Assembly (NCBI RefSeq): GCF_021026375.1
Contig: NZ_JAJNDB010000006.1
Coordinates: 372,001 to 436,000, forward strand
Length of the DNA: 64,000 bases
Source of the DNA: Actinomycetospora endophytica
GTDB lineage: Bacteria; Actinomycetota; Actinomycetes; Mycobacteriales; Pseudonocardiaceae
Direction: 5' to 3'
Numbering within the stretch: position 1 is the first letter of the stretch; every line of letters begins with the position of its first letter. Shown here piece after piece: positions 6,485 through 26,834 of this stretch. The notes below the pieces were generated by a model. It had not been told where the DNA came from, did not search any database, and saw only the letters and a list, made by a program, of their open reading frames with translations. A program made the position numbers and the translations under genes.

Positions 6485-6658
6485 CACCCCTCCCGGCACC
6501 CCGGCCCGCTGACCTGGTCCGGGAGCGAACGACCCTCGTCCGGTACCTCTGATCGGGGTACGGTCCCGGGTCCGGATAACGCCGGACGGGCGCCGACCGA
6601 TGCGACGGGTGAACACCCCCGCGACGGCGCGGGGACCGGGTGCCTCGGGGGCGAGAAG

Positions 6659-7213
6659 ATGATGGGTCAGGAGACGGAGACCGCGGGCGGAGCCACGGCG
6701 GGCGGGCGGCCGGGACCGGCCGGGCCGGTCGCGCCGATGACCCCGCCCGGCGGACACCGCCCCCCGACGGGTGGCTTCCCCGCCGGCCCGCGATCGCCCT
6801 ACGCCCAGCACCCGTACGGCGGCCCGGCCCAGTACCCCGCCGCCCGGCCCTACCCCGGCCCGTACGTGCCCGGCCCGCGTCCCACCCCGACCGGCCCCCA
6901 CGGCGCGGTCAACGCGGGGCCCTACTCCTGGGACCCCGCGAACGACGTCGACGACCCGCGGCGCCCGGGCAATGCCGCGGCGGCCTCCTCGGTCATCCTC
7001 GGCCTGCTCGCGCTGCTGATCAGCTTCCGCCCGCTGGCGTTCGGCTCGATGGTCATGGCCTGGGACACCTACGTGGCCCTGGGCGTCGCGGTGGTGGCCC
7101 TCGTCGTCGGCGGGGTCGCCCTGCGCACCCCGGTCCGCCGCCCGGTCGCCGTCGTCGGGATGACCCTCTCGGTGCTGGCGCTGCTGGTCGTGGCGGTCCT
7201 GCCCACGATCTGA
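6659..7213 (+). CDS. Proline-rich membrane protein (DUF4190-like)
   Basis: 184 residues. The first 100 or so are disordered and rich in Pro, Gly and Tyr (PYAQHPYGGPAQYP, PYPGPYVPGP), then two to three transmembrane helices follow (about 108-125, 133-155 and 161-182). This layout of a cytosolic Pro/Gly-rich leader and short membrane domain is common in actinobacterial DUF4190-like proteins of unknown role. An ATG three bases later is equally possible. The 174-bp upstream region holds GTACC-N8-GGTAC and TCCGG-N6-CCGGA inverted repeats, one of which may terminate the preceding SDR transcript. Confidence 0.65.
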   Translation: MMGQETETAGGATAGGRPGPAGPVAPMTPPGGHRPPTGGFPAGPRSPYAQHPYGGPAQYPAARPYPGPYVPGPRPTPTGPHGAVNAGPYSWDPANDVDDPRRPGNAAAASSVILGLLALLISFRPLAFGSMVMAWDTYVALGVAVVALVVGGVALRTPVRRPVAVVGMTLSVLALLVVAVLPTI

Positions 7214-7235
7214 CCCCGGGCGCGCCCCCGCCGGC

Positions 7236-8186
7236 TCAGAACGTGATGACCAGCCGGCCGCGCACCCCGCCCGCCTCGAGCCGGGCGTGGGCCTCGCCCG
7301 CCCGGTCGGCCGGGATCGCGTCGGCGACCCGCAGCGTGATCTCGTCCTTCTCGGCCTGCTCGCGCAGCCGGTCGAGCGCTGCGTGGTTCTCGGCGTAGTC
7401 GCGGACCACGACCGGGTGCCAGGTGATGCCGCGCCCGCTGCCGCCGTCGGGACCCCGGTACCCGCGGACGGTCGCGACCCGGCCGCCGTCGGCGAGCGCC
7501 GGCACGAGCTCCTCCCCCTGGAGGCTGCCGTCGGCGATCCCCGCGACTCCCTCCGGGACGGCCTCGCGGATCCGGTCGGCGACGTCGTCGCCGCGACGCA
7601 CCACGACGTCCGCGCCCAGCCCGCGCACCAGGTCCTCGTCGGCCGCCGACGCGTCCGCGAGGACCCGCAGCCCGTCGGCGTGCGCGAGCTGCACCACGTA
7701 GCCGCCGAACGCCCCCGCCGCCCCGGTGACGGCGATCGTCGCGCCCGCGGGCAGGGCGAGGAGGTCCAGCGCCAGCCGCGCGGTGAGACCGTTCATCGGC
7801 AGGGTGGCCGCCTCGACGAGTGACGCCCCGGTGGGCGCGGCCGCGACCGACCCGGCCGGTAGCGCGATCCGCGAGGAGTACCCGCCGTGCGACCCGGACG
7901 GCACGACGATGCCCATGACGCGGTCGCCGACCGCCAGGCCCGAGCTCGCGGTGTCCTCGCCGAGCGCCGCGACCGTGCCGGCGACGTCCATGCCCGGCAC
8001 GTAGGGCGGCGGGAACCGGCGCAGGCTCTCCGCCCGTGCCCCGTTGCGGGTGTACGTGTCGGTGGGGCTGACCGCCGCGGCGGCGACGTCCACCAGCACC
8101 TGACCGGGCCCGGGAACCGGGTCGGGCAGCTCGACGACCTCGAGGGCCTCGGGCGCTCCGAACTCCGTCACTCCGACTGCGCGCAT
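7236..8186 (-). CDS. Zinc-free MDR-family quinone oxidoreductase-like protein
   Basis: 316 residues from the ATG at 8186 (MRAVGVTEFGAPEALEVVELP). It has the N-terminal GroES-like domain with PYVPGMDVAGTV, a nucleotide-binding Rossmann segment (GATIAVTGAAGAFGGYVVQLA, split here only for description) near residues 144-164, and C-terminal GGVRGRLVITF. The structural zinc cysteines of alcohol dehydrogenases are absent, which fits the NADPH:quinone oxidoreductase branch of the medium-chain family. It reduces quinones or enones in that family; substrate unknown. It is transcribed on its own, and its 3' end faces the DUF4190-like gene 22 bp away. Confidence 0.85.
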   Translation of the reverse strand: MRAVGVTEFGAPEALEVVELPDPVPGPGQVLVDVAAAAVSPTDTYTRNGARAESLRRFPPPYVPGMDVAGTVAALGEDTASSGLAVGDRVMGIVVPSGSHGGYSSRIALPAGSVAAAPTGASLVEAATLPMNGLTARLALDLLALPAGATIAVTGAAGAFGGYVVQLAHADGLRVLADASAADEDLVRGLGADVVVRRGDDVADRIREAVPEGVAGIADGSLQGEELVPALADGGRVATVRGYRGPDGGSGRGITWHPVVVRDYAENHAALDRLREQAEKDEITLRVADAIPADRAGEAHARLEAGGVRGRLVITF

Positions 8187-8331
8187 GCCGGGGGCAACGC
8201 CGCCACCCCGAGCCGATCTTCCCCGCCGTCGTGACCGTGCTCCCCGGACCGGGCGAACCTGGCATCCCGACCAGGTGAGTCGCCGGAGCGGCGCTGGGAG
8301 GGCGCAGGCGGGGGCTGTCACCGTCGCGCCC

Positions 8332-8535
8332 ATGTCGTCCGCGTCCTCCGCGCCGCCCCGCCCGACCTCGGTCACGCCGATCTTCGACGCGGTGGACCAG
8401 TGGTGGCGCGACGGCGGCGACGACCCGCTGCCGTGCACGATGCTGTCCTTCGCGGGCTCGACGCGCGACCCCCGGCGGCCGGTGCGGGTGCCCGCCTCCG
8501 CCGCCGGACCGCGGCATCTCCTCGGGCGCTCGTGA
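8332..8535 (+). CDS. Small hypothetical protein
   Basis: 67 residues from ATG 8332 (GTG 8275 in the same frame is an alternative). No membrane segment or known motif: SVTPIFDAVDQWWRDGGDDPLPCTML is followed by an Arg/Pro-rich tail. It lies divergent from the quinone oxidoreductase-like gene and just upstream of the TetR gene, with GGGAGG some 30 bp before the ATG. Coding status is likely but not certain because open frames are frequent at this GC content. Confidence 0.45.
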   Translation: MSSASSAPPRPTSVTPIFDAVDQWWRDGGDDPLPCTMLSFAGSTRDPRRPVRVPASAAGPRHLLGRS

Positions 8536-14450: not shown

Positions 14451-16934
14451 TCACGGGCCGGAGAACGCCTGCAGGAAGCGGTCCCGGAACGCCTCCATCG
14501 GCCAGGTCGGGGCGGTCGGGGGCGGCCGGAGTCCGTCGGTCCAGCCCCAGCTCGCCGTCCGCGCGAGCACCGCAGGATCCCGGGAGATGATCGACATCGG
14601 CACGTCGCGCCCCGCACCGGGTCCGGTGACGAGCGGGGCGGGCTGGTGGTCGCCGACGGCGATCACGACGAGGTTCGGGTCGTTCGAGCGCTGCACCCAC
14701 GAGGTCAGGGCGTCCATCGTGTACGCGATCGACTGCGCGTACCCGGCGCGGGCCTGGGACTCCGCCGTGCTGCCGGGGGGTTCCGGCGGGTTGGGGAGCT
14801 GGCCGTCGAACACCGAGCCGTCGCCGAGCTGGTCCCACCCGATCATGTGCGGCAGCGGTTGCCAGGGCGCGTGGCTGGAGACGAGGTCGATCTCGGCCAT
14901 CATCGGCGGGCGGGGAGCGGGCTTGTCGAGCTCGAGCTGGTCGAAGCGGTCGAGCACGAACTGGTCGGGCATGGACGCCCAGCCGAACGACGGGCCGCGG
15001 TACCCGAGCTGGCGCACGTTGTACGCCCGGTCGTAGCCGTAGAAGGCGCCCTCGGGCCACGGGCGCGTGGTGCCCGGCTGCATCGCGACGGTGTCCCACC
15101 CGGCCCGGCGGAACGCGGCGGAGAGCGTGAACCGGGTGCTGGAGGTGAGCGTGAGGTAACGCTGCTCGTTGTCGACGTGGAGCCCGGAGAGCAGCGTCGC
15201 GTGCGCGAGCCAGCTCCCGCTGCCCACCACCGACGACGACAGGAACCCGCTGCGGGCGCCCCAGCCGGCAGCCGGGAGGTCCCGGTCGGCGCGGTCGAGC
15301 ACCGGGGTCACCGTCGGCGCCAGGCCGGGATCGGTGAGCGCCGCGCGGCCGTAGCTCTCGACGATCGCCAGGACGACGTCCTTGCCGCGCAGTGCGGTGA
15401 GCAGGTCGGGCGCGGGGACCCCGGACCACGCGTCGGCGCGGGACTGCGCGGCGAACGCGTCGGCGTCGCGCAGCGAGGTGAGGGTGATGTGGGCGCGGAC
15501 GGTCGCGCCCGCTGCCGTGCTGGCGGCCGCGAGCGGGACGCCCGGCGCGATCGTCGTCCCGGCCACCACCGCCACCAGCCACACCGCGCCGAGCACGCCG
15601 AGCGCCCGCAGCACGACCCGGCGGTGGACATCGGCCCGGGTCACGACACGGCGCGCGGCCAGGGCGGCTCCGCCGAGGAGCACGACGCCGAGCACGACGG
15701 CGGCGACGATCGCCCCGATCTCCGCCGCCCGACCGTAGGTGCTGGCGACGAACTCGACGCCGTCGGCGACGAGCGCCCGGTCGAGGACCGGGTCGAACGG
15801 GCGGGCGAGGACGGTCGCGAACCCGACGTCGAACGCGGTCAGCACCGCCCAGGCCCCCAGCAGCGCCCCCGCGACGAGGGCCACCGGGACGCGGACCCGG
15901 CGGGGCAGGAGCAGCAGCAGCGCGAGCCCGGCCACTCCCTCGATCGGCAGCCGCAGGTACACCTCGGGGATCACCGCGCCCGGGTCCTGCGGCGCCACCA
16001 GCACCGCACCGAGGACCAGCACGGCGACGACGGTGAGCGTGGCGCCGAGCGCCCGCCGCCATCCCGGTCGCGTCGGCCCGGCCGCACCCCGCTCGCCGTC
16101 GTCGTCGGGCGTCTCGCCGGCCGCACCGCGCTCGCCGTCCGAGTCACCCCCCGCACGAGGGGAACCCTCGTCCTCGTAGAACGACGCGATCCTCCCCTCG
16201 CGCGGCACCGCACCCGGACGATGCCGGGCCAGCCAGACCACCGAGACCCCGAACGACCACACCAGCGCGGCCAGGGCCACCGCGACGAGGACCGTCGAGG
16301 CCACGCGCGGCAGAACGTCAGCCGCCGCGACCACGAGCGCCACGCCCTGCACCGCCGCGACGACCTTCGCCGAGCGCCGGACCGGCAACGACCCCCGCAG
16401 CCACGGCAGCACCCAGCCGGCGGCGACGAAGGCGTAGCGCATCCCGCCGACCGCGAGGACCCAGACGCCCAGGTCGCCGGCGACCTGGACCGAGAGCACG
16501 GCCAGCAGCGCCGCGTCGAGCTCGGAGTCGAACCGTGCGCCGAGCTCGCTGACCGTCCGGGTCCGGCGGGCGACCTGCCCGTCGACCGCGTCGAGCAGCA
16601 GCGCGGCGACCGTCAGCGCGACCAGCGTCGTCGTCGGCGCCGGGCGGGAGCCCGCGATCTCCTGGACGACCAGCCCGGCGACCCCGCCGACCAGGACCGC
16701 CCGCAACGCCGTGACGCTGCCCGCGGGGCCGAGCGTCGACGCGCCCGCCTGCCGGGCCGCCCGGGTGACGAGCGCCGCGGTGAGCGCCAGGAACGTCCCG
16801 CCCCCGAGCCAGCCCGCGGTCCGCAGCCCGGCGAACACCGTGAGCAGCGCGAACAGGCCGACCGCGACGACGGCGGCCACGGCCACGGTCGCCACGACCG
16901 AGGGACGGACGAGCATCGCGGCGGGTCGGGGCAT
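14451..16934 (-). CDS. CDP-alcohol phosphotransferase fused to LtaS-like sulfatase/phosphotransferase
   Basis: 827 residues from ATG 16934 (ATG 16958 possible). Residues about 40-240 form a membrane CDP-alcohol phosphotransferase with the complete motif D115-x2-D118-G119-x2-A122-R123-x8-G132-x3-D136-x3-D140. These enzymes join a CDP-activated lipid to an alcohol such as inositol phosphate or glycerol phosphate. An acidic linker (about 250-290) with DGERGAAG repeated twice leads to five further transmembrane helices and an alkaline-phosphatase-fold domain (about 515-827): VESYGR with E526, a likely nucleophile in GSGSWLAHATLLSGLH, VSSHAPW, and GDHQPAP with D762/H763, as in LtaS-type lipid phosphotransferases. 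Both halves look catalytically intact. The fused pair suggests making and then modifying a phospho-head-group. It is divergent from the dehydrogenase-PTPS-GT-methyltransferase-flippase series. Confidence 0.82.
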   Translation of the reverse strand: MPRPAAMLVRPSVVATVAVAAVVAVGLFALLTVFAGLRTAGWLGGGTFLALTAALVTRAARQAGASTLGPAGSVTALRAVLVGGVAGLVVQEIAGSRPAPTTTLVALTVAALLLDAVDGQVARRTRTVSELGARFDSELDAALLAVLSVQVAGDLGVWVLAVGGMRYAFVAAGWVLPWLRGSLPVRRSAKVVAAVQGVALVVAAADVLPRVASTVLVAVALAALVWSFGVSVVWLARHRPGAVPREGRIASFYEDEGSPRAGGDSDGERGAAGETPDDDGERGAAGPTRPGWRRALGATLTVVAVLVLGAVLVAPQDPGAVIPEVYLRLPIEGVAGLALLLLLPRRVRVPVALVAGALLGAWAVLTAFDVGFATVLARPFDPVLDRALVADGVEFVASTYGRAAEIGAIVAAVVLGVVLLGGAALAARRVVTRADVHRRVVLRALGVLGAVWLVAVVAGTTIAPGVPLAAASTAAGATVRAHITLTSLRDADAFAAQSRADAWSGVPAPDLLTALRGKDVVLAIVESYGRAALTDPGLAPTVTPVLDRADRDLPAAGWGARSGFLSSSVVGSGSWLAHATLLSGLHVDNEQRYLTLTSSTRFTLSAAFRRAGWDTVAMQPGTTRPWPEGAFYGYDRAYNVRQLGYRGPSFGWASMPDQFVLDRFDQLELDKPAPRPPMMAEIDLVSSHAPWQPLPHMIGWDQLGDGSVFDGQLPNPPEPPGSTAESQARAGYAQSIAYTMDALTSWVQRSNDPNLVVIAVGDHQPAPLVTGPGAGRDVPMSIISRDPAVLARTASWGWTDGLRPPPTAPTWPMEAFRDRFLQAFSGP

Positions 16935-16976
16935 CCACCTATCGTCACCCGGACGCATGACGGATCGACACTCACC

Positions 16977-16991
16977 CCGCGCTCGGCGCGG
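16977..16991 (+). promoter_or_regulatory. Leader hairpin before dehydrogenase gene
   Basis: CCGCGC-TCG-GCGCGG is a perfect 6-bp stem with a 3-nt loop. It ends 6 nt before GGAGGAG (16998-17004), in a position where folding could affect access to that Shine-Dalgarno sequence. Confidence 0.4.
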
Positions 16992-17010
16992 CAACACGGA
17001 GGAGCTCACC

Positions 17011-17979
17011 CTGGATCGGACCGCGCTCGCCTACCGGGTCCTCGAGCCGGGACACGGCGCCGTCGTCGAGGTGGAGGTCCCCGAACCGGGACCCGACGAC
17101 GTCGTCGTCCGCACCCGGCACTCGGCCGTCAGCCGGGGCACCGAGCTGCTGGTGCTCCGCGGCGGGGTGCCGCCGAGCCAGTACGGGGTGATGCGGGCGC
17201 CGTTCCAGGTCGGCGAGTTCCCCGGACCGGTGACCTACGGCTACCTCGCGGTCGGCGCCGTCGAGCAGGGGCCGGCCGAGCTGCGCGGTCGCGACGTGTT
17301 CTGCCTCCACCCGCACCAGACCCGGTTCGTGGTCCCCACGTCGGCCGTCAGTCCGGTCCCGGACGACGTCCCGGCGACGCGGGCCGTGCTCGCGGGCACC
17401 GTCGAGACCGCGGTGAACGCGCTCTGGGACGCCGCGCCGCGGGTCGGTGACCGGATCGCGGTGGTGGGCGGCGGGATGGTCGGGTGCGCGGTGGCGGCAC
17501 TGCTCGCGCCGATGCCCGGGGTGCGGGTCGAGCTGGTCGACGTCGACCCGGCGCGGGCGGCGGTGGCGGACGCGCTCGGCGTCGGCTTCGCCCGGCCCGA
17601 CGACGCCGCGGGCGGCTGCGACCTGGTGGTCCACGCCAGCGCGACGGAGGCCGGGCTCGCCCGCTCGCTGGAGCTGCTCGGCGTCGAGGGCGAGGTGATC
17701 GAGCTGTCCTGGTACGGCGACCGCGCGCCGCGGGTGCCGCTCGGCGAGGGCTTCCATCCCGGTCGGCTCGCGATCCGGGGGAGTCAGGTGGGGCGGGTGT
17801 CGCCGGCGCGCCAGGCCCGTTGGACCTACGCCGACCGGATGGCGCTCGCTCTGCGGCTGCTCGCCGACGACCGGTTCGAGGCGCTGATCACCGAGGTGGT
17901 CGCGTTCGGGACGCTGCCGGAGACGATGACGCGGCTGGCGGCCGGTACGCCGGGCCTCGGTGTGCGCGTCGACTACTGA
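17011..17979 (+). CDS. MDR-family dehydrogenase without zinc-binding cysteines
   Basis: 322 residues if translation begins at CTG 17011, which follows GGAGGAG by 6 nt; the in-frame ATG at 16957 would add an Arg-rich 18-residue leader with no ribosome site of its own. The protein has the medium-chain dehydrogenase order: GroES-like start with RHSAVSRGTELLVL, substrate region, then GDRIAVVGGGMVGCAVAALLA, a GxGxxG cofactor site, and VELVDVDPARAAVADALG. Catalytic and structural zinc Cys are missing, and HPHQTRFVVP replaces the usual segment. It resembles BchC-like and threonine-dehydrogenase-like proteins. It heads the PTPS-GT-methyltransferase-flippase run and is probably its oxidoreductase. Confidence 0.75.
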   Translation: MDRTALAYRVLEPGHGAVVEVEVPEPGPDDVVVRTRHSAVSRGTELLVLRGGVPPSQYGVMRAPFQVGEFPGPVTYGYLAVGAVEQGPAELRGRDVFCLHPHQTRFVVPTSAVSPVPDDVPATRAVLAGTVETAVNALWDAAPRVGDRIAVVGGGMVGCAVAALLAPMPGVRVELVDVDPARAAVADALGVGFARPDDAAGGCDLVVHASATEAGLARSLELLGVEGEVIELSWYGDRAPRVPLGEGFHPGRLAIRGSQVGRVSPARQARWTYADRMALALRLLADDRFEALITEVVAFGTLPETMTRLAAGTPGLGVRVDY

Positions 17980-18000
17980 CGTCAACCAACGGAGTTGATC

Positions 18001-18399
18001 ATGTTCTCGGTGACCGTCCGCGACCACGTCATGGTCGCCCACAGCTTCACCGGCGCGGTGTTCGGACCGGCGCAGGCGCTGCACGGCGCCACGTTCGTCG
18101 TCGACGCCACGTTCCGCCGCCCCGAGCTGGACGGGGACAACATCGTCGTCGACATCGGTCTGGCGACGTCCGCGCTCGGTGCGGTGCTCGACGACCTGCG
18201 CTACCGGAACCTCGATGACGACCCCGCCTTCGCCGGCGTCAACACGACCACGGAGTTCCTCGCGCAGGTCGTGGCCGACCGGCTCGCGGCGCGCATCCAC
18301 GCCGGCGACCTCGGCGAGGGTGCCCGTGGGATCGCGGCGATCGCGGTGGAACTGCAGGAGTCGCACGTCGCGCGGGCCGGGTACGAGCGGGCCCTGTGA
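18001..18399 (+). CDS. 6-pyruvoyl-tetrahydropterin synthase / QueD-like protein with incomplete zinc site
   Basis: 132 residues; ATG 18001 follows CGGAG by 6 nt. Fold markers of the PTPS/QueD family are present: the first-strand His (VAHSF, H14), LHG (H28) before a beta-hairpin, a [24 protein letters not shown] segment equivalent to the D-F-x2-L helix, and [16 protein letters not shown] matching NPTAENLA with the catalytic Glu position. In the family H-x12-H-G-H binds Zn2+ and a Cys precedes it; here the third ligand is A30 and no Cys is present in the loop [10 protein letters not shown]. Activity on dihydroneopterin triphosphate is therefore doubtful. No queC, queE or folE gene is near. It lies 21 nt after the dehydrogenase, in the same operon. 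Confidence 0.75.
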
Positions 18400-18460
18400 C
18401 GTCAGCGATGCGGCACCGCTGTCGTCCAACGTCAGCAGCTCCACATCCTCGCGCGGGCCG

Positions 18461-19522
18461 ATGATCGTCCACGCCGTCCTCCCCGGCGACGTCCACACCG
18501 TCCCGAGTGGCGGCAACGTCTACGACCGGCGGGTGCTGCGCGGGCTCCGGGAACTCGGCATCGACGTCGTCGAGCACCTGCTGCCGGGCGCGTGGCCGCG
18601 CGGCGAGGCGGCCGCCGTCGCGAACGTCCTGGACGACGTTCCCGACGCCGGGTCGGTGCTGCTGGACGGCCTCGTCGCCTGCGGGGTGCCGGACGCGCTC
18701 GCACCGCACGCCGACCGGCTGCGGCTGGTGGTGCTCGTGCACCTGCCGCTGGCCGACGAGCACGGGCTCCCCGCGGCCACCGCCCGCGACCTCGACGCCC
18801 GCGAGCGCGCGGCCCTGGGATGCGCCACGACGGTGGTGACGACGAGCCGGTGGACCGCCGACCGGGTCGTCGCCAGCCACGGGCTCGACCCGGCCCGGGT
18901 GCTCGTCGCACCGCCCGGCGTCGATCCGGCGCGGGCCGCACGAGGCTCCGCCGTCACCGGGACCCCGCCGCGGCTGCTGTGCCTCGGCGCGCTCACCCCG
19001 ACCAAGGGCCAGGACGTGCTGATCGAGGCGCTGGCCCGTGTGGCCGACCGGTCGTGGACGTGCGTGCTCGCCGGACCGACGACCCGCGACCCCGGCTTCG
19101 TCGTGCGGCTCCGTCGGGCGATTGCGCACCACGGCCTCGCCGAGCGCGTCACGGCGCCCGGCACACTGACCGGCCGGGCCCTGGACGCGGCGTGGACGGC
19201 CACCGATCTGCTCGTGCTCCCCTCGCGGACGGAGACGTTCGGGATGGTCGTCACCGAGGCGCTGGCCCGCGGGATCCCGGTCGTGGCGAGCCGGGTCGGC
19301 GGGGTCTCCGAAGCGGTGGGCACGACGGGGCCGATGCCCGGAATCTGGGTACCGACTGAGAACGTTGGGGCGCTCGCCGCAGCACTGGTCAGGTGGCTGG
19401 AGGACCCGGTGCTGCGTTCCGGGTGGAAACTCTCAGCGCTCGGACGGCGAGGCACGCTGATGCCGTGGACCTCGACCTGTCACCGGATCGCGTGGACGTT
19501 CCGCTCCCCCGGGCCCGGCTGA
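18461..19522 (+). CDS. Glycosyltransferase family 4 protein
   Basis: 353 residues from ATG 18461. GT-B fold: the N-terminal half starts MIVHAVLPGDVHTVPSGGNVYDRRVLRGL, typical of acceptor-binding domains, and TTSRWTADRVVASHGLDPARVLVAPPGVDP links the halves. The donor domain has PRLLCLGALTPTKGQDVLIEAL and the E-x7-E region SRTETFGMVVTEALARGIPVVAS, with the two Glu residues that hold the nucleotide sugar. It probably transfers a sugar from a nucleoside diphosphate donor to a lipid or metabolite made by this locus. Its last 58 bp overlap the methyltransferase gene in a different frame. Confidence 0.88.
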   Translation: MIVHAVLPGDVHTVPSGGNVYDRRVLRGLRELGIDVVEHLLPGAWPRGEAAAVANVLDDVPDAGSVLLDGLVACGVPDALAPHADRLRLVVLVHLPLADEHGLPAATARDLDARERAALGCATTVVTTSRWTADRVVASHGLDPARVLVAPPGVDPARAARGSAVTGTPPRLLCLGALTPTKGQDVLIEALARVADRSWTCVLAGPTTRDPGFVVRLRRAIAHHGLAERVTAPGTLTGRALDAAWTATDLLVLPSRTETFGMVVTEALARGIPVVASRVGGVSEAVGTTGPMPGIWVPTENVGALAAALVRWLEDPVLRSGWKLSALGRRGTLMPWTSTCHRIAWTFRSPGPG

Positions 19523-20322
19523 GCGCACCCGGCTCGCCGGTCTGCACGCCGGACTGGCTCGGGCTGCGTGAGCCCGCCGACCACGCCGCCCGCGCGGGCG
19601 AGCTGGCCGACCGCCTGGCCGACCGGCTCGGAGCCTGGCCGGGTGCGCGCGACGTCGTGGTCCGCGACGTCGGGTGCGGCACCGGCTCGATGGGACGCTG
19701 GCTCGCGCCACGGCTGGCCCGGCCGCAGCGCTGGGTGCTCCAGGACCGCGACGCCGACCTCGCGCACCGGGCGGCCGCCGCGACGCCGGTCCCCGCCACG
19801 GCCCTCGTCGGGGACCTCGCCGACGACGACACGCTCGCCGGCACCGACGTCCTCGTCTGCTCGGCCCTGCTCGACCTGCTCACCGCGTCCGACGTCGAGG
19901 GCCTCGCCGCGCGCTGCGCCGAGGCCGGCTGCGCCGCGCTGCTGACGCTCTCCGTCACCGGCGTCGTCGCGCTCGACCCCGTCGACCCGCTCGACGACGA
20001 CATCGCGGCCGCGTTCGACGCCCACCAGCGCCGCGACGGCCGGCTCGGCCCGGACGCCCCCGACGTCGCCGAGGCCGCCTTCGCCCGGCACGGGTACGCG
20101 GTCCACCGCCGGCCGAGCCCCTGGCGCCTCGGGCCCGGGAACGCCGCCCTCGTCGAGGAGTGGCTGCGCGGCCGGATCGACGCGGCCTGCGCCCAGGACC
20201 CGGCGCTGCTCGCGGTCGCGGAGCCCTACCTGCGCCGCCGGCTCGAGACGCTGCGCGCCGGGAACCTCTACGGCGAGGTCGGCCACGCCGACCTGCTGGC
20301 CCTGCCCGGGACGGACCGGTGA
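19465..20322 (+). CDS. Class I SAM-dependent methyltransferase
   Basis: 285 residues from GTG 19465, in frame with the only plausible N-terminus (DLDLSPDRVDVPLPRARL). The SAM-binding motif I is VVVRDVGCGTGSMGRWLAPRL near residues 57-77, followed by WVLQDRDADLA (motif post-I) and GTDVLVCSALLDLLTASDV (motif II). The target is unknown; the C-terminal part (WLRGRIDAACAQDPALLAVAEPYLRRRL) is helical. The gene starts inside the glycosyltransferase and ends in a GTGA overlap with the flippase-like gene, so the three are tightly coupled and probably stoichiometric. Confidence 0.82.
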   Translation: MDLDLSPDRVDVPLPRARLSAPGSPVCTPDWLGLREPADHAARAGELADRLADRLGAWPGARDVVVRDVGCGTGSMGRWLAPRLARPQRWVLQDRDADLAHRAAAATPVPATALVGDLADDDTLAGTDVLVCSALLDLLTASDVEGLAARCAEAGCAALLTLSVTGVVALDPVDPLDDDIAAAFDAHQRRDGRLGPDAPDVAEAAFARHGYAVHRRPSPWRLGPGNAALVEEWLRGRIDAACAQDPALLAVAEPYLRRRLETLRAGNLYGEVGHADLLALPGTDR

Positions 20323-21269
20323 GGGCGCTCAAGCTCGTGCTCGGTGCCGCGGTGGTCGTCGCGGTGGTCGCGCGTCTCGGATCCGGGGCGGTGCTCGACG
20401 GGATCCGCGCGGTGTCGCCGGGAGCCGTGGTGCTCGCCCTGGTCCTCGGGGCGGTCACGACGGCGGCGTCCGCGGCGCGCTGGTGCCTGGTCGCCCGCGG
20501 AACGGGGCTCTCGATCGGCTTCGGCGGCGCGGTCGGCGACTGCTACCGCGCGCAGTTCCTGAACTCGGTGCTGCCCGCGGGCGTGCTCGGCGACGTGCAC
20601 CGGGCCGTGGACCACGGCCGGCGCAACGGCGACCTCGCCCGCGGCGTCCGTGCCGTGGTCCTCGAGCGGGTCGCGGGTCAGGTCGTCGTCGTGGTGGTCG
20701 GCGCGGCGGTGCTGCTCGCGGTCCCGAGCCCGGTGCGGGGCATGGTCGGCGGGCTCGGGCCGGCGGCTCTCGTGGCGGGCGGGCTGGGCCTCCTGGCGCT
20801 CGGCCTCGCGGCGGTCCCGCCCATCCGTCGCCGCCTGGCGCCGCTGGCCACCGCCACCCGCGACGGCCTGCTGACCGCCCGGACCGGTCCGGGCGTGCTC
20901 GGCCTCTCCCTGCTCGCGATGGCAGGTCACCTGGCACTGCTCGTGGTGGCCGCGCTCGCGGTCGGGGTGCAGGCGTCGCCCGGCGAGCTGCTCCCGCTGC
21001 TGGTACTGCCGCTGCTGGCGATGGGGGTGCCGCTGAACGTGGGCGGCTGGGGACCGCGGGAGGCGACGACGGCGGTGTCGTTCGGCGTCGCCGGCCTCGG
21101 CGCCCCGACCGGGTTGGCGACGGCCGTGGCCTTCGGGGTGCTCGCGCTGGTGTCGACGCTGCCCGGGCTCGGGGTGCTCCTGCTGCGCCGGACGGTCCAA
21201 CGACGGGCCGCCACCTCGCCGAACTCGCCGCGGTTCACATTTCGGGCACGCCGTCCGTCAGTAGCGTGA
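20319..21269 (+). CDS. Flippase-like membrane protein (LPG synthase TM region, UPF0104)
   Basis: 316 residues from a GTG overlapping the previous stop. It has seven to eight hydrophobic helices and the family segments GAVGDCYRAQFLNSVLPAGVLGDVHRA and VPLNVGGWGPREATTAVSFGVAGL, seen in the membrane domain of lysylphosphatidylglycerol synthase and related AglD-like proteins thought to flip or carry lipid-linked substrates. The aminoacyl-transfer domain of MprF is absent. In this operon it would move the product of the glycosyltransferase and methyltransferase across the membrane. This role is inference from context. Confidence 0.78.
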   Translation: MRALKLVLGAAVVVAVVARLGSGAVLDGIRAVSPGAVVLALVLGAVTTAASAARWCLVARGTGLSIGFGGAVGDCYRAQFLNSVLPAGVLGDVHRAVDHGRRNGDLARGVRAVVLERVAGQVVVVVVGAAVLLAVPSPVRGMVGGLGPAALVAGGLGLLALGLAAVPPIRRRLAPLATATRDGLLTARTGPGVLGLSLLAMAGHLALLVVAALAVGVQASPGELLPLLVLPLLAMGVPLNVGGWGPREATTAVSFGVAGLGAPTGLATAVAFGVLALVSTLPGLGVLLLRRTVQRRAATSPNSPRFTFRARRPSVA

Positions 21270-21871
21270 CGAGCGTGCTCATCCTCGTCCGCCACGGCCT
21301 GACGAGCGCCAACCAGCAGGGGCTCCTGCTCGGGCGAGCGGACCCGCCGTTGTGCGACGACGGCCGGGAGCAGGCCGAGGCGCTGGCCCGGACCCTCCCG
21401 GCGCCGACGCGGCTGATCAGCAGCCCCCTGGGCCGGGCCCGGGAGACCGCCGAGACGATCGCCGCCGTGTCCGGTGTCGGCGTCGAGATCGACGACCGGT
21501 GGATCGAGCTGGACTACGGCGACCTCGACGGCTGCCCCGCCTCCGCGCTCGACCCCGAGGGATGGCGGACCTGGCGCGACGACCCCACCTTCGTTCCCGC
21601 CGGCGGCGAGTCGATCGCGGCGGTCGGTGCCCGGGTCCGGGCGGCGTGCCGGGACCTGACGGGCGCGGCGGCGGCCGGCGACGTGATCGTCGTCAGCCAC
21701 GTCTCCCCGATCAAGGCCGCGACCGCGTGGGCGCTCGGGGCCGGCGACGAGGTGACCTGGCGGATGTGGGTGTCCGACGCCGCGGTGTGCCGGATCGACA
21801 CCTCCGGGTCGGCGCCCCGGCTGCTCGCGTTCAACGACGTCACCGCGCACGCCGCGGCGCCCGTGCCCTGA
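21266..21871 (+). CDS. Histidine phosphatase family (phosphoglycerate mutase-like)
   Basis: 201 residues from GTG 21266 (GTGA overlap with the flippase-like stop); GTG 21275 is an alternative. The phosphohistidine motif is VRHG (H10), with R-T-A-E-T-A-type ISSPLGRARETAETIAAV near 50-67, catalytic Glu in ELDYGDLDG, and the second His in VVSHVSPIKAATAWALG near 155. All active-site residues of the branch 1 superfamily are present. It could be a phosphatase acting on an intermediate of the upstream pathway, or a general cofactor phosphatase simply coupled to it. Confidence 0.85.
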   Translation: MTSVLILVRHGLTSANQQGLLLGRADPPLCDDGREQAEALARTLPAPTRLISSPLGRARETAETIAAVSGVGVEIDDRWIELDYGDLDGCPASALDPEGWRTWRDDPTFVPAGGESIAAVGARVRAACRDLTGAAAAGDVIVVSHVSPIKAATAWALGAGDEVTWRMWVSDAAVCRIDTSGSAPRLLAFNDVTAHAAAPVP

Positions 21872-22141: not shown

Positions 22142-22211
22142 CGGTGTCGCCCGGCCGGATGGAGCAGGATGCGGCCCGGACGCTGTGGCACGGGCGACGA
22201 GGAGGCGGCCG

Positions 22212-23186
22212 GTGAGGATCGCGATCACGGGCGGCGCGGGCTTCCTCGGCACCCTGCTCGCCCGCCACCTGCTCGCCGGACCGGTCGTCCTCGACGACAC
22301 CCCGCCCGCCGACGTCGACGAGCTGATCATCGCCGACCTCGCCGAACCCGCCCCCCGTCTCGCCGACGACCCCCGGGTCACCGCCCTCACGGGCGAGCTC
22401 GACCGGACCCTCGACCACCTCGGGGACGTCGACGCGATCTTCCACCTCGCCGGCGTGGTCAGCGGGGCCGCCGAGGCCGACTTCGACCTCGGCATGCGCA
22501 CCAACCTCGACGGCACCCGCGCGGTCCTCGAGCACGCCCGCCACCAGGCAGGACCGCCGCTCCTCGTCTTCACCAGCTCGCTGGCGGTGTTCGGAACCGA
22601 CCCCGCCGGACCGACACACCGCACCGTCGACGACGACACCCTGCCGCGTCCGCAGTCGAGCTACGGGGTGCAGAAGTTCATCGGCGAGCAGCTCGTCGCC
22701 GACTACACCCGCCGGGGCTTCGTCCGGGGCCGGTCGGTCCGGCTGATGACCGTCTCCGTCCGGCCGGGGCCACCGAACGCCGCCGCCTCCGGGTTCCTGT
22801 CCGGCATCCTCCGAGAGCCGCTGGCCGGTGAGCGTGCCGCGTGCCCGGTCCCGCCGGACACCCCGGTGGCGCTGTCCTCCCCGCGCCGCACGATCGAGGG
22901 CATCGTGCGCGCCGCCGCGGTCGGCGCGGAGGCCTGGGGCAGCCGCACCGCGATGAACCTGCCGTCGATCACCACGAGCCCGCGCGAGATGGTCGAGGCG
23001 CTCGACGGGGACGCCGCGAGGCTGGTCGACTGGACCGAGGACGCCACGGTGACCGCGATCGTCGGGAGCTGGCCCGCGCGCTTCGACACCGCGCGCGCCA
23101 CGGCGCTGGGACTGCGGCCGAACGGCTCCGTCGACGACCTGGTCCAGGAGTACCTCGCCGACCACACGCCCGACCACGCGCCCTGA
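22212..23186 (+). CDS. denD: NAD-dependent epimerase/dehydratase, D-erythronate dehydrogenase-like
   Basis: 324 residues; GTG 22212 is preceded by GAGGAGG at the right distance. Extended SDR fold: MRIAITGGAGFLGTLLARHLL at the N-terminus, HLAGVVSGAAEADFDLGMRTNLDGT, and YGVQK as the YxxxK active site (SSYGVQKFIGEQLV). The segment VSVRPGPPNAAASGFLSGILREPLAG is characteristic of the D-erythronate dehydrogenase group, which oxidises a C4 sugar acid at C2. No erythronate kinase or isomerase partner is next to it. The P450 starts 28 nt later, so the two may form an operon and the substrate may be different here. Confidence 0.75.
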   Translation: MRIAITGGAGFLGTLLARHLLAGPVVLDDTPPADVDELIIADLAEPAPRLADDPRVTALTGELDRTLDHLGDVDAIFHLAGVVSGAAEADFDLGMRTNLDGTRAVLEHARHQAGPPLLVFTSSLAVFGTDPAGPTHRTVDDDTLPRPQSSYGVQKFIGEQLVADYTRRGFVRGRSVRLMTVSVRPGPPNAAASGFLSGILREPLAGERAACPVPPDTPVALSSPRRTIEGIVRAAAVGAEAWGSRTAMNLPSITTSPREMVEALDGDAARLVDWTEDATVTAIVGSWPARFDTARATALGLRPNGSVDDLVQEYLADHTPDHAP

Positions 23187-23214: not shown

Positions 23215-24438
23215 ATGCCCGACCGGTACTGGGATCCCGAGGTCCCCGCGGACGACCACGACGACCTCGGCCACCTTCGCGAGCACTTCGACCCGCTCAG
23301 CCGCAGCCTGACCCGGGGCCGGTACACGCGGGTCTCCCGGACGATGGCCCGGGAGTGCCCGGTGATCCACAGCGACGGGTTCGGCGACGGCGTGTGGACG
23401 GTGTCCGGGTACGAGCAGCTCGTCGCGGTGCACCGCGACGAGGGCACGGCATACTCGAACTTCCCCGTGCTCCTGCAGAACTTCGGCCAGGTCCGGCCGA
23501 TGATCCCCATGGAGTCCGACCCGCCGCTGCACCGGCAGTACAAGCAGATCATCGCCGCGCCGCTCTCCCGCGGCGTGCAGACCGGACGCGAGCCCTACTA
23601 CCGCGACCTGGTGCGCCGCCACCTGCAGGCGTTCCTCGACGACGGGCACGCCGAGCTCTTCGAACAGCTCTGTACGCCGGTCACGGTGCACGCGCTGATG
23701 GACACCCTCGGCATCCCCGACGACGACCGCGAACGCCTCGCCGCCCTCGCCATCCGGCTGGTCCGTGGCGACGCCGAGGACGGCACCCCCGCCACCGAGA
23801 TCTACGAGTACTTCGCCGGCCTGGCGCAGGCCAAGCGGACCGAGCCGGGCCAGGACATCGTCTCGCTGCTGTGCACCGCCACGGTCGACGGCCGGCCGCT
23901 GACCGAGTCGGAGATCCTCGACTACTGCCTCATCCTGCTGCCGGCCGGCTTCGAGACCACGGCGAGCTCGATGAGCTTCATGTTCCTGATGCTGGCCGAG
24001 GACCCGGAGCTGCAGCAGACCCTGCGGGCCGAACCGGACCGCATCCCGGCCGCGCTCGAGGAGATGATGCGCTACGTGACCCCGACCCGGTCACACACCC
24101 GCACCGTCGTCGCCGACACCACCCTGGACGGACACGACCTGCGCGACGGCGACCGGGTGCACCTCAACTGGGTGGGGGCCAACCACGACCCGGCGGTGTT
24201 CGAGCGCCCCGACGAGCTCCGCATCGACCGGAGCCCGAACCGGCACATGAGCTACGGCTACGGCGCCCACACGTGCGTCGGGCTCCACATGGCCCGCGCC
24301 GAGATGAAGATCGCCTTCGAGGAGGTCCTCGCGGCGATGGCCGACATCCGCCTGACCGACCCGGAGGCCGTCGTCGAGGACGTCGGCACCACCTGGGCGA
24401 TCACCCACCTGCCGGTGACGTTCACCCGCCGGACCTGA
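23215..24438 (+). CDS. Cytochrome P450
   Basis: 407 residues, normal for bacterial P450s. The I-helix oxygen motif is A244-G-F-E-T-T249, the K-helix ExxR is E283-M-M-R286, and the heme loop is SYGYGAHTC354VGLHMAR with C354 as the iron ligand. A GAAGGGG ribosome site precedes the ATG. No ferredoxin or reductase gene is adjacent, so electrons must come from elsewhere. The HLRE-rich N-terminus and EEMMRYVTPTRSHTRTVVADTTL segment are typical of class I actinobacterial P450s; the substrate is not inferable. It is likely cotranscribed with the upstream dehydrogenase. Confidence 0.92.
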   Translation: MPDRYWDPEVPADDHDDLGHLREHFDPLSRSLTRGRYTRVSRTMARECPVIHSDGFGDGVWTVSGYEQLVAVHRDEGTAYSNFPVLLQNFGQVRPMIPMESDPPLHRQYKQIIAAPLSRGVQTGREPYYRDLVRRHLQAFLDDGHAELFEQLCTPVTVHALMDTLGIPDDDRERLAALAIRLVRGDAEDGTPATEIYEYFAGLAQAKRTEPGQDIVSLLCTATVDGRPLTESEILDYCLILLPAGFETTASSMSFMFLMLAEDPELQQTLRAEPDRIPAALEEMMRYVTPTRSHTRTVVADTTLDGHDLRDGDRVHLNWVGANHDPAVFERPDELRIDRSPNRHMSYGYGAHTCVGLHMARAEMKIAFEEVLAAMADIRLTDPEAVVEDVGTTWAITHLPVTFTRRT

Positions 24439-24505: not shown

Positions 24506-24973
24506 ATGAACGACGTCATGCGCTGCGTCGGGTGCGGCGAGGAGCTGCTGGCGGAACGGGCCGAGCTGGGGTACGAGTACTGCCTCGCGCCCGCCTGTCA
24601 GGGGCGGTACCGCCAGGGGCCGGCGGTCACCGCCGTCGGGGTGAACAAGAGCGGGGAGTCCTTCGTGGTGGCGGAGCCGGAGGACGTCCGACGGCGGGCG
24701 GAGGCCGGTGAGTTCGCCGCGAAGAACGCGGCGGTCCTGCCGACGCCCGCGAGCGGGGTGCCCCGTCAACGGACCCCGCAGCGGCGCCGGCCCAGCACGC
24801 CGCCGAAGCGCCCCTGGACCCCCGAGCAGGAGAACCTGGTGCGGATCTACCACGAGATGGGGCTCTCCCCGCGCGAGATCGTCGAGCGCTGCCGCACGGC
24901 AGCGCCCCGGCTCGGTGTCGACGAGCGCCTCGTCGTGCAGATCCTGTCGTCGCCCCGGCCGGCGAGACGCTGA
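24506..24973 (+). CDS. Zinc-ribbon/HTH-like small protein of unknown function
   Basis: 155 residues from ATG 24506, with GAGG just before it. The N-terminus has MRCVGCGEELLAERAELGYEYCLAPAC, four Cys in a ribbon-like arrangement (C-x2-C ... C-x4-C). After a basic Pro-rich linker (about 85-108), the C-terminal 45 residues (TPEQENLVRIYHEMGLSPREIVERCR) look like a helix-turn-helix. It could bind nucleic acid. The start of nhaA follows the stop within a few bases, so the two are probably one transcript. Confidence 0.65.
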   Translation: MNDVMRCVGCGEELLAERAELGYEYCLAPACQGRYRQGPAVTAVGVNKSGESFVVAEPEDVRRRAEAGEFAAKNAAVLPTPASGVPRQRTPQRRRPSTPPKRPWTPEQENLVRIYHEMGLSPREIVERCRTAAPRLGVDERLVVQILSSPRPARR

Positions 24974-24974
24974 C

Positions 24975-26834
24975 GTGGTGGCCGGCCAGACGATCTGGTC
25001 CCCGTCGGTGCGCCGGCGGATGCGCCACTGGGTGGCCGACGAGCGGGCCGGCGCGGTCGTGCTGCTCGCCGCCGCCGTCGCCGCCCTGCTCTGGGCCAAC
25101 GTCGCCCCGGCCTCCTACACCGGGCTCTGGAACACCGAGTTCTCGCTGCGGCTCGGCGACCACGAGGCGGGCGAGACCCTGCGGACCTGGGTCAACGCCG
25201 GGCTCATGACGCTGTTCTTCTTCGTCGTGGGCCTGGAGGCGCGCCGCGAGTTCGATCTCGGCGAGCTGCGGGAGCGGTTGCGCCTGGTGCTGCCCCTGGT
25301 GGCCGGGCTGGTCGGGATGACGGTCCCGGTGGTGCTCTACCTGACCATCACGGCGGGGACCCCGGCGGCGCACGGCTGGGGTGTCGTCATGTCGACGGAC
25401 ACCGCGCTCGCCCTCGGCCTGCTCGCGCTGGTGGGGGTGCGCTCGGCGGCGCTGCGCTCGTTCCTGGTCGCGGTGCTGGTGGTCGACGACCTGGCCGCGC
25501 TCGCGGTGATCGCGATCGTCTACACCGAGCACGTGGAGCTGCCGGCGCTGCTGGTGGCGGTGGCCTTCGTCGTCGCCACCTTCGTCGCGCGGCGGGTGCG
25601 GGTGCGCTCGGTACCGCTCTACGTGGCCCTCGGTCTCGGCGCCTGGGCGGCGCTGCTCGCCAGCGGGCTCGACCCCGTCGTCGCCGGCCTGGTCCTGGGG
25701 CTGCTGACGCTCGCCTACCCGGCCGCCCGCGACGATCTCGAGCGCGCCACCGACCTGGTGCGGGCGTTCAGGGAGCAGCCGACCGCGGAACTCGCCCGGA
25801 CGGCGCGGCTCGGGCTCGGCGCCGCGGTCTCGCCGAACGAGCGGCTGCAGCAGTCGGTGCTGCCGTGGGTGACGTTCGGCGTCGTCCCGCTGTTCGCGCT
25901 GGCCAACACCGGCATCCCGCTCGGCGGGGACGTCCTCGCCCGCGCGGTGACCTCGCCGATCACGCTCGCCGTGGTCATCGGCTACGGGCTGGGCAAGCCG
26001 CTGGGCATCGTCGGGACCTCGCTGCTGCTGACCGGCGCGAGCCGGGGCCGGTTGCGCCCGCCGGTCGGGTGGGCGGGGGTCACGGGTGCGGGGACCATCG
26101 CCGGGGTCGGGTTCACCGTCGCGCTGCTCATCGCCTCGCTCGCCTTCAACGGGCCGGACCTGGAGGAGGCCACCCTCGGGATCCTGGCGTCGGCGATCGT
26201 CGCGCCGGCCCTGACGTGGCTGGTCTTCCGGGTCCTGGCGTTCATGCCGGCGAGCCGCCGCGAGCGGGCCCTGCTCGGGTCCGCCCCGGTGCTCGTCGAC
26301 CTCGTCGACCCGGTGGACCCCGAGCGCGACCACATGCGCGGGCCGATCGAGGCCCCGGTGACCGTCGTCGAGTACGGCGACTTCGAGTGCCCCTTCTGCG
26401 GCCAGGCCGAGCCGACGGTCCGCGAGCTGCTCGCCGAGCGCGGCGACGTCCGCTACGTGTGGCGTCACCTGCCGCTGTCCGACGTCCACCCGCGCGCGAC
26501 GATCGCCGCGCAGGCCGCCGAGGCCGCCGCCCGCCAGGGCGCGTTCTGGCCGATGCACGACCTGCTGCTCGAGAACCAGGAGCACCTGCGCCCTCCAGAC
26601 CTCGACCGGCACGCGGCCACGCTCGGGCTCGACGTCGAGGTCTTCCGCCGGGACGTCCACGCACCCGACGCGGTCGAGCGGGTGGCCGAGGACCTCGATT
26701 CCGCCGACCGCAGCGACGTCGCCGGCACCCCGACCTTCTTCGTCAACGGCCGCCGGCACTTCGGCGCCTACGACCTGAAGTCCCTGCTTCACGACGTCGA
26801 CGTCGCCCGCACCCGCGCCGAGCTCGACGTCTGA
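24975..26834 (+). CDS. nhaA: Na+/H+ antiporter NhaA fused to DsbA-like thioredoxin domain
   Basis: 619 residues; GTG 24975 or the next codon GTG 24978. Residues about 20-425 are NhaA with its helices and the essential aspartate pair D171-D172 in VVDDLAAL, plus VVGLEARREFDLGEL and the ALANTGIPLGG region. Residues about 455-619 are a DsbA/thioredoxin-fold domain: VEYGDFEC472PFC475G and a cis-Pro loop in DVAGTPTFFVNGRRHFG. NhaA exchanges two protons for one Na+; the redox domain might tune activity or act on partners. The domain topology would need to be settled to know which side it works on. Such fusions are known in actinobacteria. Confidence 0.9.
   Translation: MVAGQTIWSPSVRRRMRHWVADERAGAVVLLAAAVAALLWANVAPASYTGLWNTEFSLRLGDHEAGETLRTWVNAGLMTLFFFVVGLEARREFDLGELRERLRLVLPLVAGLVGMTVPVVLYLTITAGTPAAHGWGVVMSTDTALALGLLALVGVRSAALRSFLVAVLVVDDLAALAVIAIVYTEHVELPALLVAVAFVVATFVARRVRVRSVPLYVALGLGAWAALLASGLDPVVAGLVLGLLTLAYPAARDDLERATDLVRAFREQPTAELARTARLGLGAAVSPNERLQQSVLPWVTFGVVPLFALANTGIPLGGDVLARAVTSPITLAVVIGYGLGKPLGIVGTSLLLTGASRGRLRPPVGWAGVTGAGTIAGVGFTVALLIASLAFNGPDLEEATLGILASAIVAPALTWLVFRVLAFMPASRRERALLGSAPVLVDLVDPVDPERDHMRGPIEAPVTVVEYGDFECPFCGQAEPTVRELLAERGDVRYVWRHLPLSDVHPRATIAAQAAEAAARQGAFWPMHDLLLENQEHLRPPDLDRHAATLGLDVEVFRRDVHAPDAVERVAEDLDSADRSDVAGTPTFFVNGRRHFGAYDLKSLLHDVDVARTRAELDV

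Follow-up and report, generated by a model that had tools for sequence, protein, structure and literature searches.

A stretch of 64,000 nucleotides from Actinomycetospora endophytica (contig NZ_JAJNDB010000006.1, positions 372,001 to 436,000; hereafter the window) carries a compact locus in which a PTPS-like T-fold protein, a divergent MDR-type dehydrogenase (ADH) and a GT4 glycosyltransferase are accompanied by a methyltransferase (MT), a flippase-like protein, a histidine phosphatase and a fusion of a CDP-alcohol phosphotransferase with an LtaS-like enzyme (FUS). The cluster is real and conserved across many actinomycetes, and on balance we consider it probable that it draws an early pyrimidine of the riboflavin type off into a glycosylated product. 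The pyrimidine or pterin-type precursor is the best-supported link of this proposal, and the product is probably sugar-bearing and possibly membrane-linked, to judge from the families encoded. Gene content, recurrence, a coupling between a residue and a neighbouring gene, residue loss in the PTPS-like protein and the folds are observations, and from them we infer every reaction, the order of reactions and the product.

Recurrence of the cluster in actinomycetes

When one genome per species was scanned with the PTPS-like protein, at least 597 stretches were obtained, of which at least 581 were confirmed and the best 80 retained as loci. A further 83 loci, hand-picked for spread, came from whole genomes, so that with the window 164 loci were available, or 162 distinct ones, as two duplicate pairs are among them. 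The first set is weighted to Streptomyces and close relatives, and locus counts are not independent events. Hidden Markov models (HMMs) for the locus genes were built on the first 80 loci and run over all 164, the RibD_C model being built mostly from the second set.

Among the distinct loci, the PTPS-like gene is present in all 162, ADH in 158, GT4 in 156 and the flippase-like gene in 146, followed by the CDP-alcohol transferase (142), MT (133) and the LtaS-like half (49). Genes of a supply type are also frequent, namely GTP cyclohydrolase II (GCH2) in 118, a creatininase-like gene in 93 and a RibD_C reductase in 61. At E ≤ 1e-15, 130 of the 397 genomes sampled from the window's order contain the PTPS clade, as do 57 of 394 from its class. 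ADH follows it closely: ten of ten genomes with the PTPS clade have one ADH match each, adjoining PTPS, and each of 30 genomes that lack the clade gave no match at E ≤ 1e-30. The first-pass annotation, made from the letters of the window, had held that scattered homologues in related genomes would reduce the grouping to chance; the search was run, and the genes recur together, which along with the co-occurrence of ADH and PTPS argues that the grouping is not accidental. As in members of the SCO6650 type, the window PTPS gene is flanked by ADH and GT4, and its product is 71-86% identical to the PTPS of the 80 best loci. The window clusters with the Actinomycetospora loci L032 and L040; the trees are quick LG+G4 builds in which long branches meet and deep forks are weak.

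An older core and a PTPS subfamily of its own

Loci with weak PTPS-family matches (L012-L031), chosen as background, mostly turned out to bear the core: ADH and RibD_C profile matches lie beside PTPS in 18 of the 20 and GT4 in 17. Twenty more PTPS-family loci, sampled in other families within the phylum, fall into ten with RibD_C, ADH, PTPS and GT4 together and ten without ADH and GT4, the latter serving as the comparison set for PTPS residues. As far as sequence comparison can tell, the RibD_C/ADH/PTPS/GT4 core is older than the Actinomycetia locus. Three of the non-core loci (L212, L216, L217) combine a cyclohydrolase with a weak RibD_C match, 5-7 kb from PTPS, so that proximity of a PTPS-family gene to riboflavin-type genes is not diagnostic alone.

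The window PTPS is an orthologue of Streptomyces coelicolor SCO6650 (PDB 3D7J; E 4e-61 over residues 3-134). Like PTPS and QueD proteins, the locus protein matches PF01242 and retains two of the three zinc-binding His residues and the C-terminal Glu, which anchors pterins in this family and is invariant across the 161 Actinomycetia rows aligned there. It differs from them in that, in the window copy, the catalytic Cys is replaced by Ala, the third zinc His by Ala and the catalytic Asp-His pair by Arg-Tyr, the zinc-ligand replacement being a feature of Actinomycetia. The Cys site holds Cys in ten of ten non-core relatives, and Ala in nine of ten deep core proteins and 162 of 163 aligned Actinomycetia rows; the catalytic His site is His in ten of ten, Tyr in nine of ten and Tyr in 160 of 164, respectively, with L219 as the outlier row of the deep core. 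The third zinc His is retained in 10/10 of each deep group, and the Actinomycetia rows have Ala in 162 and Val in one of 163. Because this split tracks the presence of the core, the locus PTPS forms a subfamily of its own, in which the zinc ligand was probably lost later than the Cys and His.

The dehydrogenase is similarly divergent. In the window its PF00107 score is 17.2 against a cut-off of 31.8, and the copy of the deep relative L203 passes with 64.9. A motif, S[AG][VI]S[RKP]GTE, occurs in 140 of 160 ADH rows at what we take to be the position of the Cys/His zinc ligands of zinc-type ADHs, so that the usual catalytic-zinc motifs would be missing. For GT4, assignment as an MSMEG_0565-type or a mycothiol glycosyltransferase was rejected, the model scores being far under cut-off.

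Precursor supply genes and their coupling to a cyclohydrolase residue

GCH2 genes (220 bits to the RibBA structure 4i14) and creatininase-family genes are found in Streptomyces, Amycolatopsis, Actinomadura and other loci, and the metal-binding motifs of the creatininase-like proteins are conserved in 92 of 94 loci. The RibD_C reductase occurs in Micromonospora and other loci and is fused to GCH2 in L052 and L054. Five of these reductases were scanned with TIGR00227 (cut-off 150.15), which is passed by L203 (192.8), L054 (187.1) and L052 (172.0) and missed by L195 (122.8) and L116 (120.1); a RibD_C Pfam match is present in L195 and L054. Neither cyclohydrolase nor creatininase is found in 40 of the 164 loci, and hence these are not universal features of the group; 19 loci show RibD_C without either of them in the fetched stretch.

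The cyclohydrolases differ at a switch position, which is Tyr in E. coli-type enzymes and Met in SCO6655. Met or Tyr here reportedly governs the product of the enzyme (Spoonamore et al. 2006). The residue was readable in 120 of 121 loci (Met 59, His 26, Leu 5, Gln 2, Tyr 28); once duplicates are removed, 91 of 118 readable loci have a residue other than Tyr. A creatininase-like gene accompanies all 91 non-Tyr cyclohydrolases and none of the 27 Tyr ones; that of L192 lies about 13 kb from PTPS, beyond the stretch, and is counted among the 91. As some fetched stretches are short (e.g., L115), whole genomes were checked for creatininase as well, and matches of 273-350 bits were obtained in nine of nine genomes of the non-Tyr type, with no match above 106 bits in 21 of 23 of the Tyr type. 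RibD_C shows the opposite bias, being present in 26 of 27 distinct Tyr loci and 15 of 91 non-Tyr loci.

The non-Tyr cyclohydrolases group in a single clade (support 94). Among the Tyr enzymes at least two separate lineages have good support, one of 19 rows, a reference sequence among them (99), and the other the L052/L054 pair (100), with the placement of L176 and L181 unsure. Since the Tyr enzymes belong to separate lineages, the coupling is unlikely to represent one inherited block. The coupling suggests that a non-Tyr cyclohydrolase with a creatininase-like enzyme equals a Tyr cyclohydrolase in output, and both supply routes probably yield 2,5-diamino-6-ribosylamino-4(3H)-pyrimidinone 5'-phosphate (DARoPP), the putative entry metabolite. 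A further cyclohydrolase besides the locus copy exists in 19 of the 22 Tyr-type genomes searched, where the label 'RibBA' for off-locus enzymes denotes frame length plus score.

Similar gene pairs were also observed away from PTPS loci. In L200 (genome G992, group f5 g8, presumably Streptomyces), a further GCH2 gene adjoins a RibD_C reductase (5891-6661 and 7198-8445). In L226 (G647, of the window's genus; 6062-6988 and 15371-16570), a second Tyr-type GCH2 and a RibD-like gene are separated by about 8 kb, and this pair possibly belongs to another pathway using the same precursor.

The variant in the window's genus

The window holds a variant without supply genes and with the recurrent fusion. 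Its genome has one GCH2 at E ≤ 1e-5, of RibBA-like length and Tyr type, located off the locus, and a creatininase relative of only 74 bits elsewhere. Two candidates were not counted as locus members, namely a RibD-like reductase-deaminase gene (L199) away from the locus and a RibD_C relative at C14:369668, about 20 kb upstream of PTPS and outside the window.

A histidine phosphatase at this place was found, among the 164 loci, only in the window, L032, L040 and L119, all of the window's genus, and in L054 and L055 of Pseudonocardia. Its nearest models are RNase H/acid phosphatase and alpha-ribazole phosphatase, both under cut-off. In the window, L032, L040, L119 and L055 the phosphatase is present and cyclohydrolase, creatininase and RibD_C are absent from the locus; in L054 it occurs together with the GCH2-RibD_C fusion. 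A phosphatase-labelled match in L069, 9.7 kb off, on the opposite strand and 32% identical, was judged unrelated and is still in the raw tallies.

Proposed pathway and alternatives

In many relatives, the locus GCH2 would open GTP. The non-Tyr enzyme would stop at a formylated pyrimidine (FAPy/AFRPP), from which the creatininase-like protein would take off formate, and the Tyr enzyme would reach DARoPP in one go. Where encoded, the RibD-type reductase would convert DARoPP to its ribityl form. The PTPS-like protein, acting without Cys/His catalysis, and the divergent dehydrogenase would then transform the pyrimidine, after which GT4 may attach a sugar and MT may methylate the product. In Actinomycetia, the CDP-alcohol transferase, the flippase-like protein and often the LtaS/GacH-like enzyme are predicted to work at the membrane on the product or its lipid carrier. 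In the window's genus the precursor would come from housekeeping RibBA/RibD, and the extra phosphatase may strip the 5'-phosphate. The first-pass annotation had suggested a precursor from a pterin-like reaction, an idea strengthened by the GCH2, creatininase-family protein or RibD-type reductase that many relatives add.

Several observations weigh against this proposal. The window's own genome yielded neither a cyclohydrolase at the locus nor a gene of the creatininase clade nor a dedicated RibD_C, so its precursor is deduced from relatives; five of the 164 loci, the window included, have the phosphatase without cyclohydrolase, creatininase or RibD_C, and 16 more show none of the four in the stretch fetched, several stretches being short. 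RibD_C was not found within the fetched stretch of 76 of the 91 distinct non-Tyr loci, and no HMM match for the flippase-like protein, the CDP-alcohol transferase or the locus MT was obtained in the ten deep core loci, of which L203 has another methyltransferase-fold ORF 3' of GT4. The coupled changes are too few for a sign test (p = 0.5): mapped onto the locus tree, the two traits switch jointly on four occasions, and only two of the pairs lie on starred branches. Two Tyr-type genomes, G414 and G469, carry a creatininase-clade gene or fragments away from the locus. The G414 match (252 bits) comes from a 6.3 kb contig, and its assembly carries 4% contamination. In G469, two partial ORFs on opposite strands, separated by about 29 kb (L224 9732-10445 and L225 6544-6924), look like a decayed or misassembled copy. 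Finally, the locus cyclohydrolase is the sole one found in three of the 22 Tyr-type genomes (G803, G957 and G1003), where it may serve riboflavin.

The same genes could be read as a pathway for a glycolipid or phospholipid head group, in which the PTPS-like protein and ADH were recruited for non-pyrimidine chemistry and the cyclohydrolase and creatininase genes nearby meet another requirement. The frequency of the CDP-alcohol transferase and flippase-like genes, the 20 loci in which the former is fused to an LtaS/GacH-fold enzyme, the lost catalytic residues of PTPS and the retention of these genes in the window's genus without cyclohydrolase or reductase all agree with it. However, it leaves the occurrence of RibD_C, ADH, PTPS and GT4 together in ten deep loci giving no lipid-gene HMM matches, the tie between cyclohydrolase type and creatininase presence within the locus, the GCH2-RibD_C fusions and the invariant, pterin-anchoring C-terminal Glu without a ready explanation, and we regard it as unlikely. 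The first-pass view of a modified glycolipid with an exported head group is weakened by the same deep relatives, and no result identifies a lipid product. A different objection concerns the window's genus alone, which may have moved to another precursor with the phosphatase as a new supply step, such that the pyrimidine chemistry of the relatives would not apply. The four loci of the genus and L055, with the phosphatase and without supply genes, fit such a switch, whereas the window PTPS bears the subfamily residues at high identity to the 80 loci, a Tyr-type housekeeping RibBA-like enzyme could provide DARoPP, and L054 combines the phosphatase with the GCH2-RibD_C fusion; the switch therefore seems improbable.

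A second dedicated route for riboflavin or secreted flavin, as proposed for Sinorhizobium, would account for the early riboflavin steps, has a precedent in BrbF and accords with the three genomes whose locus cyclohydrolase is the only one found. It is made very improbable by the absence of a lumazine or riboflavin synthase among the recurrent families identified (the scan was not exhaustive), by near-invariant genes that are GT4, PTPS-like and ADH, and by the further cyclohydrolase in most Tyr-type genomes. That the PTPS-like gene is an ordinary QueD/6-carboxytetrahydropterin gene with unrelated neighbours is hardly credible, because beyond the PF01242 match the defining residues (Cys, third zinc His and Asp-His) are replaced, TIGR03367 gives 29 bits against a cut-off of 89, and the neighbours are conserved. 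The diversion of a riboflavin-type pyrimidine thus remains our preferred reading. A bolder form of it, speculative and with the odds against it, is that the cluster makes a hitherto unrecognised type of envelope molecule. This would be a ribityl-pyrimidine or pteridine derived from guanine, glycosylated, methylated, joined to lipid via the CDP-alcohol transferase, flipped across the membrane and moved by the fused LtaS-like enzyme; the supply module would have been swapped repeatedly between one-step and two-step forms and lost in the window's genus.

Layout of the locus, the fusion protein and neighbouring genes

All seven ORFs and family matches were recovered where the first-pass annotation had placed the genes (Table 1). 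Of the overlaps it described, two GTGA overlaps stand, at 20319-20322 (MT/flippase) and 21266-21269 (flippase/phosphatase), and the extent of that between GT4 and MT depends on the uncertain MT start, being at most 130 nt if MT begins at the first GTG. For FUS, ATG 16934 was taken as the start, with GTG 17009 as an alternative.

Table 1. Genes and domains of the locus in the window
Feature	Position	Strand	Family evidence
FUS, CDP-alcohol phosphotransferase / LtaS-like alkaline-phosphatase-superfamily fusion	14451..16934	-	PF01066 and PF00884, both above cut-off
CDP-alcohol phosphotransferase domain of FUS	16257..16715	-	PF01066 44.9 bits
LtaS/GacH-like extracytoplasmic catalytic domain of FUS	14637..15377	-	PF00884 29.4 bits
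ADH, MDR-type dehydrogenase, divergent	16957..17979	+	PF00107 below cut-off in window copy
PTPS-like T-fold protein, SCO6650 type	18001..18399	+	PF01242 70.1
GT4 glycosyltransferase	18461..19522	+	PF00534 108
MT, class I S-adenosylmethionine methyltransferase, start uncertain	19393..20322	+	PF13649 28.5 (cut-off 27)
LPG_synthase_TM / flippase-like membrane protein	20319..21269	+	PF03706 98.4
Histidine phosphatase	21266..21871	+	PF00300 158.7

FUS is a single reading frame of 852 aa, with PF01066 at residues 99-251 and PF00884 at residues 545-791. Of the 144 loci with the domain, 143, the window's among them, carry the CDP-alcohol motif D..DG..AR.{7-9}G...D...D. The second half, behind a helical membrane-like region, has the LtaS/GacH-like alkaline-phosphatase-superfamily fold, so that its earlier description as LtaS-like holds at fold level, and the fusion, found as one ORF in 20 of the 49 loci that have the LtaS-like half, is recurrent and not unique to the window. 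It differs from the LtaS, GacH and EptC-MCR phospho-alcohol transferases, to which the second half is only 10-16% identical, in being joined to a CDP-alcohol phosphotransferase, and its phospho-alcohol transfer is putative.

Directly 3' of the locus, an NAD-dependent SDR gene (22185-23186, plus strand) matches the D-erythronate dehydrogenase model NF043036 with 342.9 against a cut-off of 325, and no match to it was found in the 80 named loci. It is adjoined by a gene whose translation appears cytochrome P450-like (23215-24438, plus strand), and then by a long ORF (about 24708-26834, plus strand) with a translation resembling an NhaA-type Na+/H+ antiporter and a thioredoxin/DsbA-like domain. 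Elsewhere, eight loci (Nocardiopsis L101 and group g344, including L169, L172, L183 and L185) share an MFS efflux gene within the fetched stretch, and seven have a PF04672 S-adenosyl methyltransferase, which together with the MFS gene hints at small-molecule export. Three recurrent ORFs without a Pfam match (in L163, L151 and L153) were set aside as possible antisense frames.

Relation to known systems and significance

The closest described region is SCO6648-SCO6655 of S. coelicolor, which shares the PTPS orthologue SCO6650 and includes the GTP cyclohydrolase II SCO6655; gene numbers other than these two were assigned by gene order. Most Streptomyces loci have the order CDP-alcohol transferase (opposite strand), ADH, PTPS, GT4, MT and flippase. 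Unlike the S. coelicolor region, the window has no creatininase or cyclohydrolase, and it has the LtaS-like half fused to the CDP-alcohol transferase and a phosphatase after the flippase. The first-pass annotation knew no named pathway with this gene set; the set is not wholly new, as it contains SCO6650 of solved structure. A search of the open-licence literature found no paper on SCO6650, nor any on a cyclohydrolase, a creatininase and a glycosyltransferase together in actinobacteria. To our knowledge, no physiological role has been assigned to the Streptomyces cyclohydrolase and PTPS homologues of the cluster.

Some expression data touch on the region. SCO6652, the presumptive cluster MT to judge from gene order, is listed in one study among 53 strongly regulated conserved S. 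coelicolor genes, with log2 values for second versus first mycelium of 0.8, 4.3 and 4.1 at 24, 48 and 72 h (PMC3610822), and another study lists SCO6655 among the genes anticorrelated in the metabolic switch (PMC2853524). As physiological clues, these are weak hints.

The supply genes can be compared with two further systems. In Sinorhizobium, the creatininase-family formamidase BrbF converts AFRPP to DARoPP, and the AFRPP-making enzyme of that system is described as still missing (PMC9478397). The relatives' creatininase-family protein, with its metal-site motifs, pairs with a non-Tyr cyclohydrolase, and the same reaction is proposed for it. Unlike in BrbF/ArfB systems, it is tied here to glycosyltransferase and PTPS-like genes, is absent from the window's locus and, in L034, scores 35.4 bits with the ArfB model NF033501, under the cut-off of 180. 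The reductases of L203, L052 and L054, above the TIGR00227 cut-off, resemble the archaeal-type DARoPP reductase and the C-terminal domain of RibD, but no deaminase-domain match was reported for these proteins or that of L195, and the gene adjoins PTPS, ADH and GT4 in relatives and is not in the window's locus.

This comparison places the Streptomyces homologues in one frame, a DARoPP supply module that would feed a pathway centred on the glycosyltransferase; a third of the genomes sampled from the window's order encode the PTPS clade of this pathway. The coupling predicts a function for an uncharacterised creatininase-family protein, and the non-Tyr locus cyclohydrolase is a candidate for the kind of enzyme that makes AFRPP.

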